This document shows, in pieces, positions 28,110-30,626 of a DNA stretch of 64,000 nt. The stretch covers positions 2,976,001 through 3,040,000 of the forward strand of contig NZ_CP028136.1 of NCBI RefSeq assembly GCF_003024155.1. The letters are read 5' to 3'. How positions within the stretch are numbered: position 1 is the stretch's first letter; every line of letters starts with the position of its first letter. The DNA comes from Christiangramia fulva (GTDB lineage Bacteria > Bacteroidota > Bacteroidia > Flavobacteriales > Flavobacteriaceae). The notes beneath the pieces were generated by a model that worked only from the letters and a program-made list of their open reading frames with translations, ran no database searches and had not been told where the DNA came from. Made by a program: the position numbers and the translations under genes.

Positions 28110-29150
28110 ATGAAAGAAGACTTGCAGGTTTACGATAATATATTGCAACTTATAGGCAATACCCCGTTAATTCACCTAAATAAAATTACCAACGGATTTA
28201 AAGGAAACTTCTTCGCCAAAGTAGAAGGTTTTAATCCCGGCCATTCTTCGAAAGACCGCATTGCTTTGTATATTATTGAAGAGGCGGAAAAAAACGGAAT
28301 TCTCAAACCAGGTAGCACCATTATAGAAACGACATCCGGGAATACCGGTTTTAGCATCGCGATGGTTAGCATTATCAAAGGATATGAATGTATTCTTGCA
28401 GTAAGCTCCAAATCTTCGAAAGACAAAATTGATATGCTCAGGACGATGGGCGCCAAAGTTTATGTGTGTCCGGCTAACGTTCCCGCTGATGATCCACGAT
28501 CTTACTACCAGGTTGCCAGGCGTTTACATGAGGAAATTAAAGGTTCGGTTTATATCAACCAGTATTTCAATGAATTAAATATTGACGCGCATTTCAATAC
28601 AACCGGACCTGAAATCTGGAAGCAAACCGAAGGAAAATTAACCCATCTTGTAGCCTGTAGTGGTACGGGTGGAACAATTTCTGGTACAGCGCGTTTTTTG
28701 AAATCGAAGAATCCTGATATAAAAATTATAGGTATTGATGCTTTTGGCTCGGTACTGAAAAAATATCACGAAACCCGTGAATTTGATGAAGAGGAAATTT
28801 ATCCTTACCGAATAGAAGGTTTGGGTAAAAATCTTATTCCAACGGCCACCGATTTTGATGTTATTGACAAATTCGTAAAGGTAACCGATGAAGAAGCGGC
28901 GCATACTGCACGTGAACTGGCAAGAACTGAAGGCCTTTTTGTGGGGTATACCAGTGGTGCAGCCACTCAGGGTCTGAAACAACTTGCTGAAGAAGGAGAG
29001 TTCGATAAAGATTCTGAAGTGATAGTTATTTTTCCAGATCATGGTTCCCGTTATATGAGCAAGATCTACAGCGATGACTGGATGACTGAACAGGGCTTTT
29101 TCGATACCAAAAACGAAGCCGCATCTCAACCTATTGAGATCATTAAGTAA
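28110..29150 (+). CDS. Cysteine synthase/CBS-like PLP enzyme, possible cysteate synthase
   Basis: The 346-residue fold-type II PLP enzyme has K48 in NPGHSSKDR as the Schiff-base lysine, ETTSGNTG (73-80) for the substrate carboxylate, [11 protein letters not shown] for the PLP phosphate and [18 protein letters not shown] near the end, which resembles the catalytic core of cystathionine beta-synthase. The usual NPGGSVKDR and EPTSGNTG are altered to NPGHSSKDR and ETTSGNTG. Housekeeping cysteine synthase or CBS is the cautious reading. The following gene, an alpha-oxoamine synthase, raises the possibility of cysteate synthesis for sulfonolipids; this is inference. Confidence 0.85.
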
Positions 29151-29172
29151 GATAAAATATTAACATTTATTA

Positions 29173-29207
29173 ACAAAAGCATCCTATTTTTTGTAGGATG
29201 CTTTTGT
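29173..29207 (+). terminator. Terminator after the cysteine-synthase-like gene
   Basis: A perfect 14-bp stem (29173-29186 with 29194-29207) is followed by TTTT. It implies that the next gene, which has its own promoter, is a separate transcript. Confidence 0.9.
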
Positions 29208-29238
29208 TTTTAGTAGTTTGCCATGTTGAAAAAATTAC

Positions 29239-29271
29239 TTTGTAGAATTGGGCCAATTTTACATACTTTTG
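29239..29271 (+). promoter_or_regulatory. Promoter of the alpha-oxoamine synthase gene
   Basis: TTTG (29239-29242), a 21-base spacer and TACTTTTG (29264-29271) match the Bacteroidota consensus exactly; the ATG is 22 bases further on. Confidence 0.78.
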
Positions 29272-29293
29272 CGGCTCGTCTAAATTATGACCG

Positions 29294-30556
29294 ATGAAGG
29301 ATTTATTTGATAAAATTTATAAAGATAAAGGTCCGCTGGGCAAATGGGCTGAACAGGCTGAAGGTTACTTCGTTTTTCCAAAACTTGAAGGGCCAATATC
29401 TAACCGAATGAAGTTTCGGGGTAAAGAGGTGATTACCTGGAGTATTAATGATTACCTGGGACTTGCCAACCATCCCGAAGTTCGAAAAGTAGATGCCGAA
29501 GCTGCAGCCGAATATGGTTCTGCTTACCCAATGGGTGCCCGCATGATGAGTGGTCATACCAGCTTACATGAAAGACTGCAGGATGAACTTGCTTCTTTTG
29601 TACATAAACAGGCCGCTTACCTTCTTAATTTTGGTTACCAGGGTATGGTTTCTACCATTGACGCTCTTGTTTCCAAACAGGATGTCATCGTTTATGATGT
29701 AGATGCGCATGCCTGTATCATTGATGGGGTAAGATTGCATTTAGGCCAGCGATTTACCTATAAGCATAACGACATGGAGAGTATCGAAAAGAATCTCCAG
29801 CGTGCTACCAAAATTGCAGAACAAACCGGTGGTGGGATCCTTCTTATTTCTGAAGGTGTATTTGGTATGCGAGGTGAGCAGGGTAAACTGAAGGAAATCG
29901 TTGAGCTTAAGAAAAAATATAATTTCAGGCTTTTTGTTGATGACGCACATGGTTTCGGAACGCTTGGTAAAACAGGTGCCGGAGCAGGAGAGGAGCAGGG
30001 AGTTCAGGATGAAATCGATGTGTATTTCGCCACTTTCGCTAAATCTATGGCCAGTACCGGTGCATTTATCGCAGCCGACAAAGAGATCATCGATTACCTT
30101 AAATATAACCTTCGATCACAAATGTTCGCGAAATCACTGCAGATGCAGCTGGTTGTGGGAGCTTTAAAACGTTTGGAAATGCTTCGCAGCATGCCTGAAC
30201 TTCGAGAGAAGCTTTGGGAAAATGTGAATGCGCTTCAGAATGGATTGAAGAATAAAGGCTTCGATATTGGAACGACACAAAGTTGTGTGACTCCGGTTTA
30301 TTTAAAAGGAAGTATCCCAGAGGCAATGGCGCTTGTAAAAGACCTTAGGGAGAACCACGGCGTTTTCTGCTCGATTGTTGTTTATCCTGTGATTCCAAAA
30401 GGATTGATCCTTCTAAGAATGATCCCAACCGCAAGTCATACTCTTCAGGATGTGGAGGAAACACTTGTAGCATTTTCAGCGATACGTGAAAGACTTGAAA
30501 ATGGAACATATAAAAGACTTTCCGCTTCAGTAGAAGCTGCGATGGCCAATAAATAA
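29294..30556 (+). CDS. Alpha-oxoamine synthase family enzyme (KBL/AONS/SPT-like)
   Basis: The 420-residue fold-type I PLP enzyme has H89-type GHTS segment, FVDDAHGFGTLG (214-225) with the PLP-nitrogen Asp and His, and the PLP lysine K250 in TFAKSMASTGAF. The family condenses an amino acid with an acyl-CoA or acyl-ACP and releases CO2: glycine C-acetyltransferase, 8-amino-7-oxononanoate synthase, serine palmitoyltransferase and cysteate acyltransferase. There are no bio genes or threonine dehydrogenase nearby, so a lipid role (sphingolipid or sulfonolipid) is more likely than biotin. Which one cannot be read from the sequence. Confidence 0.88.
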   Translation: MKDLFDKIYKDKGPLGKWAEQAEGYFVFPKLEGPISNRMKFRGKEVITWSINDYLGLANHPEVRKVDAEAAAEYGSAYPMGARMMSGHTSLHERLQDELASFVHKQAAYLLNFGYQGMVSTIDALVSKQDVIVYDVDAHACIIDGVRLHLGQRFTYKHNDMESIEKNLQRATKIAEQTGGGILLISEGVFGMRGEQGKLKEIVELKKKYNFRLFVDDAHGFGTLGKTGAGAGEEQGVQDEIDVYFATFAKSMASTGAFIAADKEIIDYLKYNLRSQMFAKSLQMQLVVGALKRLEMLRSMPELREKLWENVNALQNGLKNKGFDIGTTQSCVTPVYLKGSIPEAMALVKDLRENHGVFCSIVVYPVIPKGLILLRMIPTASHTLQDVEETLVAFSAIRERLENGTYKRLSASVEAAMANK

Positions 30557-30579
30557 GAATATTATAATATTTGAAATGT

Positions 30580-30605
30580 AAAGCCCTGTCATTGCAGGGC
30601 TTTTT
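30580..30605. terminator. Terminator between convergent genes
   Basis: AAAGCCCTG/CAGGGCTTT (30580-30588 with 30595-30603) is followed by a T-run. It ends the oxoamine synthase gene; the A-rich left arm may also serve the convergent gene. Confidence 0.9.
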
Positions 30606-30626
30606 CACTTTTAAATAGTGCCAAAT

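Follow-up and report, generated by a model that had tools for sequence, protein, structure and literature searches.

The synthesis of sulfonolipids by way of capnine has already been published as a pathway of three enzymes, CapA, CapB (also SulA or CFAT) and CapC. In this scheme CapA would replace the phosphate of O-phosphoserine by sulfite to give L-cysteate, CapB/SulA would combine cysteate with acyl-ACP to give 3-ketocapnine with loss of CO2, a short-chain reductase of the CapC type, encoded elsewhere, would convert 3-ketocapnine to capnine, and an N-acyltransferase may act after capnine formation. The characterised CapA (Liu et al., 2022, as cited in the available part of the review PMC10191378) has O-phosphoserine as its substrate, and an archaeal cysteate synthase homologue in Alistipes and Odoribacter is described in the same part of that review. 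According to the accessible portion of PMC9304779, SulA does not use serine, and a lysine at SulA position 281 may tell SulA from Spt. The available text of PMC11211663 reports that the CFATs of six bacteria were tested and that the reductase genes did not adjoin cfat and Cys, and links sulfonolipids to gliding motility, choanoflagellate development and inflammation. Homologues of capA and capB often bear misleading database names (cystathionine beta-synthase, glycine C-acetyltransferase), so that a firm assignment of the two genes is useful.

The window, which is the whole 64,000-nucleotide stretch of DNA analysed here (C1:2976001-3040000), forms part of the 4.38-Mb single-contig genome of Christiangramia fulva. 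It contains two neighbouring genes, capA and capB, which on sequence comparison very probably encode the first and second enzymes of sulfonolipid (capnine) synthesis. The pair agrees with the described systems in orthology, active-site residues, clade membership and conserved neighbourhood. The substrates and products given below, and the lipids of this organism, are those that would be expected by analogy with characterised relatives. Since both enzymes are known from related bacteria, the pair is an ordinary one, although its comparison with relatives offers a lead on a later step that has yet to be assigned. The original prediction of a cysteate synthase followed by a cysteate fatty-acyltransferase is supported by the CapA model and clade, by the CapB structure matches and by the SulA lysine. 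The features of the locus are as follows.

28110..29150, plus strand: capA, putative cysteate synthase of the PALP fold, 346 residues (NCBIfam CapA model, PDB match, tree clade); predicted reaction, from characterised relatives, O-phospho-L-serine + sulfite -> L-cysteate.
29172..29208, plus strand: stem-loop between capA and capB, probable capA terminator (fold energy against shuffles).
29239..29271, plus strand: Bacteroidota-type promoter motif TTTG-N21-TACTTTTG before capB (pattern match).
29294..30556, plus strand: capB/sulA, putative cysteate fatty-acyl transferase, an alpha-oxoamine synthase, 420 residues (PDB matches, active-site residues); predicted reaction, from characterised relatives, cysteate + acyl-ACP -> 3-ketocapnine.
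30580..30603, plus strand: terminator-like stem-loop after capB (10 pairs in the stem, then a T-rich tail).

Both reading frames are intact at these coordinates among the open reading frames of the window. The capA product belongs to the PLP-dependent enzymes with the cysteine synthase/cystathionine beta-synthase (CBS) fold and matches the NCBIfam model CysteaSynCapA (NF053679.1) with 654.2 bits (cut-off 600) over nearly the whole profile (positions 2-329 of 329); this equivalog cut-off is passed, and no difference from CapA was found. The NCBIfam models for CBS (TIGR01137, 394 bits, cut-off 510), CysK (274 bits, cut-off 351) and CysM (250 bits, cut-off 394) all remain under their cut-offs, and a Pfam scan finds the PALP domain only, the C-terminal CBS domains being absent. 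The nearest solved structure is PDB entry 9k2p (533 bits), which is named only as a 'Pyridoxal-5'-phosphate-dependent protein beta subunit', and the next, a CBS, scores 276 bits. The original prediction of a CBS-like PLP enzyme with altered active-site motifs is borne out, both motifs being present (NPGHSSKDR and ETTSGNTG) and unlike the versions found at the same sites in the CBS-like paralogue of this genome (NPGNSVKDR/EGTSGNTG) and in its CysM (NPGGSVKDR/EATSGNTG). The closest named CapA homologues among the matches listed come from Christiangramia/Gramella (91%), and the homologue in Gramella jeungdoensis stands at 90% among the best 80 of 577 loci.

A tree was computed from 49 proteins, comprising 18 CapA rows (one per CapA genome), 30 CBS-group rows (a fetched subset of those found, 'CBS group' being a label given in the present analysis) and one CysM. 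The 18 CapA rows, including the window protein, form a single branch with support 100/100, and the paralogue of this genome, located at C1:2473157-2474140 and 55% identical to the window CapA, falls inside the CBS group. Grouping with true CBS or O-acetylserine sulfhydrylases had been put forward as a test of the first gene; its product groups with neither the CBS group nor CysM. A CBS or cysteine synthase identity for this protein was rejected on the models under cut-off and the separate tree clade. A branch with support 99/95 unites CapA with 17 CBS-group rows, so that CapA, which looks like a CBS duplicate lacking the C-terminal CBS domains, probably came from a Bacteroidota CBS; the tree is rooted on CysM, whose branch is very long and is the sole outgroup, and thus the root is unsure.

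CapA and CBS share their fold, and the tree puts CapA beside Bacteroidota CBS-group proteins; the two differ in the CBS domains, which are carried by all four long CBS-group proteins scanned, and in 12 alignment columns at which CapA and CBS-group proteins carry different letters. The window protein has the CapA letter in all 12 of these columns and the paralogue has the CBS letter in 11, a count that is descriptive only, since membership of each group had been decided from BLAST scores against the window protein. Two CBS-group proteins with CBS domains narrowly miss TIGR01137 (491.6 and 503.2 against 510.25 bits), and three of the 18 CapA-clade proteins (G012, G037 and G095) score under the CapA cut-off. 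The paralogue itself lies under both cut-offs (CapA, 464.6 of 600 bits; CBS, 411 of 510 bits). It is a CBS-group protein without CBS domains (L008; also L012:10164-11144, plus strand), of which a longer form of about 453 residues is kept in some relatives of the same family. The CysM of this genome is a separate gene whose product is over its NCBIfam cut-off.

The best PDB match of the capB product is a full-length match to 28eh, 'Cysteate-C-fatty acyltransferase' (722 bits). Entry 7u7h, named '7-keto-8-aminopelargonate synthetase-like enzyme' in the PDB, scores 580 bits, and we infer from the available part of PMC9304779 that it is the Alistipes finegoldii SulA of that paper; serine palmitoyltransferase (SPT) structures score 238 bits and AONS/KBL structures up to 201 bits. 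These structure matches confirm that the second gene encodes an alpha-oxoamine synthase, as had been predicted. With the SulA numbering transferred through the PDB-search alignment, Asn52, His139, Lys250, Lys280 and Arg375 of CapB correspond to the SulA active-site residues Asn53, His140, Lys251, Lys281 and Arg376. The window CapB has in common with CapB/SulA/CFAT (28eh and 7u7h; PMC9304779, in the part available) a full-length match, the active-site Asn/His/Lys/Arg set and the proposed diagnostic lysine, and the differences are in sequence only. The SulA lysine and the other active-site residues are present in all 41 CapB-group rows checked. These rows represent 40 of the 54 CapB genomes of the survey described below; the other 14 genomes all belong to family f21, of which four were covered, and a truncated duplicate row was excluded. 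The residue at the position of the SulA lysine is Asn in the KBL of this genome and Thr in its BioF-like protein. The closest named CapB homologue among the matches listed is from Leeuwenhoekiella (93%).

Six alpha-oxoamine synthase-like matches were found in the genome (E <= 0.001), of which only CapB lies inside the window; the KBL is encoded at C1:1135689 and the BioF-like protein at C1:891545. The earlier statement that no bio or threonine-dehydrogenase genes lie nearby holds in so far as the window contains no other alpha-oxoamine synthase-like match, the search having covered that family only. Three long frames (L004, L005 and L006; 802-848 residues) show a distant alpha-oxoamine synthase-like match at 21-24% identity.

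The pair could alternatively be read as a CBS or cysteine synthase gene and a glycine C-acetyltransferase/AONS gene that are neighbours by chance, as is suggested by the Pfam domains that CapA and CapB have in common with these enzymes and by the database names of close homologues ('cystathionine beta-synthase', 'glycine C-acetyltransferase' and '8-amino-7-oxononanoate synthase'). This is very improbable, given that the CBS, CysK and CysM models are under cut-off for CapA and the KBL/bioF models are under cut-off for CapB (285 of 460, 242 of 493 and 277 of 426 bits), that the tree parts CapA from the CBS group and that CapB has the SulA lysine. Other members of these families are encoded elsewhere in the genome: in scans of the matched stretches, KBL and CysM were over their cut-offs, and the CBS-like and BioF-like proteins were under theirs (the latter with 339 of 426 bits for bioF).

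A second alternative, in which CapB is an SPT and the pair would act in making sphingolipids instead of sulfonolipids, draws on membership of the same alpha-oxoamine synthase family and on the NCBIfam search, in which CapB passes no model, all matches being under cut-off and none naming CapB, and in which the top-scoring model is one for SPT (296 bits). That score is, however, far below its cut-off of 640, the other two SPT equivalog models are likewise under cut-off (275 of 500 and 204 of 670 bits), and CapB scores 722 and 580 bits with the cysteate acyltransferase structures against 238 with SPT. Together with the lysine at the SulA-specific position and the published finding that SulA does not use serine (PMC9304779, in the part available), this leaves an SPT function for CapB highly unlikely. 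No SPT was found in this genome at E <= 1e-120. Grouping with AONS or KBL had been proposed as a test of the second gene, and its product proved to resemble the cysteate acyltransferases more than it does AONS, KBL or SPT. The assignments SPT, KBL and AONS for the 29294-30556 protein were rejected on the PDB scores, the NCBIfam cut-offs and the SulA lysine, and CapA and CapB remain the preferred assignments.

The hairpin at 29172-29208 has a 16-bp stem and a folding energy of -23.5 kcal/mol (z = -9.57), and none of 200 shuffled sequences was equally stable; a simple terminator scan did not list it. The motif TTTG-N21-TACTTTTG, which we take to be the Bacteroidota-type promoter consensus, ends 22 nt upstream of the capB start. 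The window holds 11 copies of this motif where 4.2 would be expected, which means that any one of them, including that before capB, may be due to chance. Terminator-like sites such as that at 30580-30603 number four in the scanned stretch against 2.6 expected. As the hairpin and the promoter motif both lie between the two genes, an operon of capA and capB was rejected, and it is reasonable to regard them as neighbours with their own signals and not as a tight operon. This agrees with the separate transcription signals noted in the original prediction and with its reading of the pair as clustering and not an operon.

The distribution of the two genes was surveyed in 148 genomes drawn from the phylum and 14 control genomes. 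CapB is present in 54 of the 148 phylum genomes (E <= 1e-100) and CapA in 18 (E <= 1e-150; 15 over the cut-off), all of them within the 54 with CapB, and none of the 14 control genomes matches the CapA model. The two genes are adjacent in 11 of the 18 CapA genomes, apart in six, all of genus g2, and on different contigs in one. A search for the pair in relatives, as suggested with the original prediction, was made among named loci, taken as the best 80 of 577 and hence biased to close relatives. In 55 of these 80 the capA match is followed downstream by capB at a distance of 130-404 bp; the adjacency is lost in the other 25, all Flavobacterium and including F. johnsoniae, which have no capB in the available flank (up to 5 kb).

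Neither CapA (E <= 1e-150) nor the archaeal-type cysteate synthase TIGR03844 (E <= 1e-60), which has the same product by family name and belongs to a different family from CapA, was found in 36 of the 54 CapB genomes. TIGR03844 matched one of the 148 phylum genomes (E <= 1e-60), which has no CapB match, and among the 14 controls Methanosarcina acetivorans only. Given the homologue described for Alistipes and Odoribacter in the available part of PMC10191378, this threshold may have been too strict to reveal a more distant archaeal-type homologue. Clustering of 10 CapA-less capB loci gave no neighbour that might supply cysteate, the families in common besides capB being lineage-local genes and small reading-frame overlaps.

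The gene order in family f1, found whole or in part, is beta-eliminating lyase, YbaB, S9 peptidase, capA, capB, (GNAT), MetA_deg-like, DUF4834, YfhO and glycosyltransferase. The GNAT-family gene encodes about 373 residues and is convergent to capB in many Flavobacteriaceae (for example L074:9400-10521, minus strand). All six fetched loci in which that downstream side is visible have it in the interval from capB to the MetA_deg-like gene. It is missing from its place in the window (30557-30626). Among the 55 adjacent named loci, from the best 80 of 577, the flank contains GNAT in 24, the MetA_deg-like gene but no GNAT in 15 and neither gene in 16. No GNAT match was obtained in this genome at E <= 1, an empty answer that alone shows little, and the same query matches 138 of the 148 phylum genomes (E <= 1e-15). 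GNAT is likewise absent (E <= 1e-60) from all 24 genomes of the genus examined, the present one included, two of which are only 67% and 73% complete. Leaving out the present genome, 22 of the 23 have CapB, and the one without a match is the 67% complete genome. GNAT is present in 10 of 12 genomes from other genera of the family, being missing in G172, which also lacks a CapB match, and in G177.

For 21 of the 54 CapB places the distance to GNAT was compared, and eight of them have GNAT within 1 kb; four of the 54 CapB genomes (G000, G053, G041 and G064) have no member of the family at E <= 1e-15. Among the matches listed, a member of the family stands no more than 1 kb from an SPT-like gene in 59 of the 107 genomes that have such a gene, and in none of 28 in family f15; 'SPT-like' here denotes a match, and only four genomes pass an SPT cut-off. 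A search of GNAT against the PDB gave one match only (E = 0.026), which is not useful.

By association only, the GNAT beside capB is a candidate N-acyltransferase. The same family beside SPT-like genes across the phylum would make it a counterpart of ceramide synthase, and its loss with retention of capA and capB would leave the genus of the window making free capnine or using an unrelated acyltransferase. That GNAT turns capnine or 3-ketocapnine into sulfonolipid in this manner is possible though doubtful, and its occurrence in 138 of 148 genomes, not being specific to CapB, counts against the role. This genome yielded no identified enzyme for the N-acylation step, and no assignment of a capnine N-acyltransferase was found in the available parts of the open-licence papers PMC9304779, PMC10191378 and PMC12927429. 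A pathway that stops at free capnine for want of GNAT is compatible with the assignment of capA and capB. In its favour, GNAT, which is widespread elsewhere and in relatives separates capB from the next conserved gene, was not found in this genome (E <= 1) or in its genus (E <= 1e-60). It is nevertheless unlikely, as GNAT is only a candidate for the acylation of capnine, another N-acyltransferase may act, and two of the 24 genomes are incomplete.

For the reduction step, the genome has 29 adh_short matches, 25 of them over the cut-off. No CapC by name was found among the 10 of 29 SDR-type matches scanned against NCBIfam (E <= 1e-55), and one SDR candidate gave only general SDR matches in the PDB. 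The lack of a CapC candidate beside the window pair fits the location of reductase genes away from cfat and Cys in the available text of PMC11211663. The best SDR resembling 3-ketosphinganine reductase (L127) scores 271 bits, under the cut-off of 400. Another SDR (L118) passes the cut-off for the flexirubin biosynthesis protein FlxB (400 bits, cut-off 340), which suggests that a locus for a flexirubin-type pigment lies in another part of the genome.
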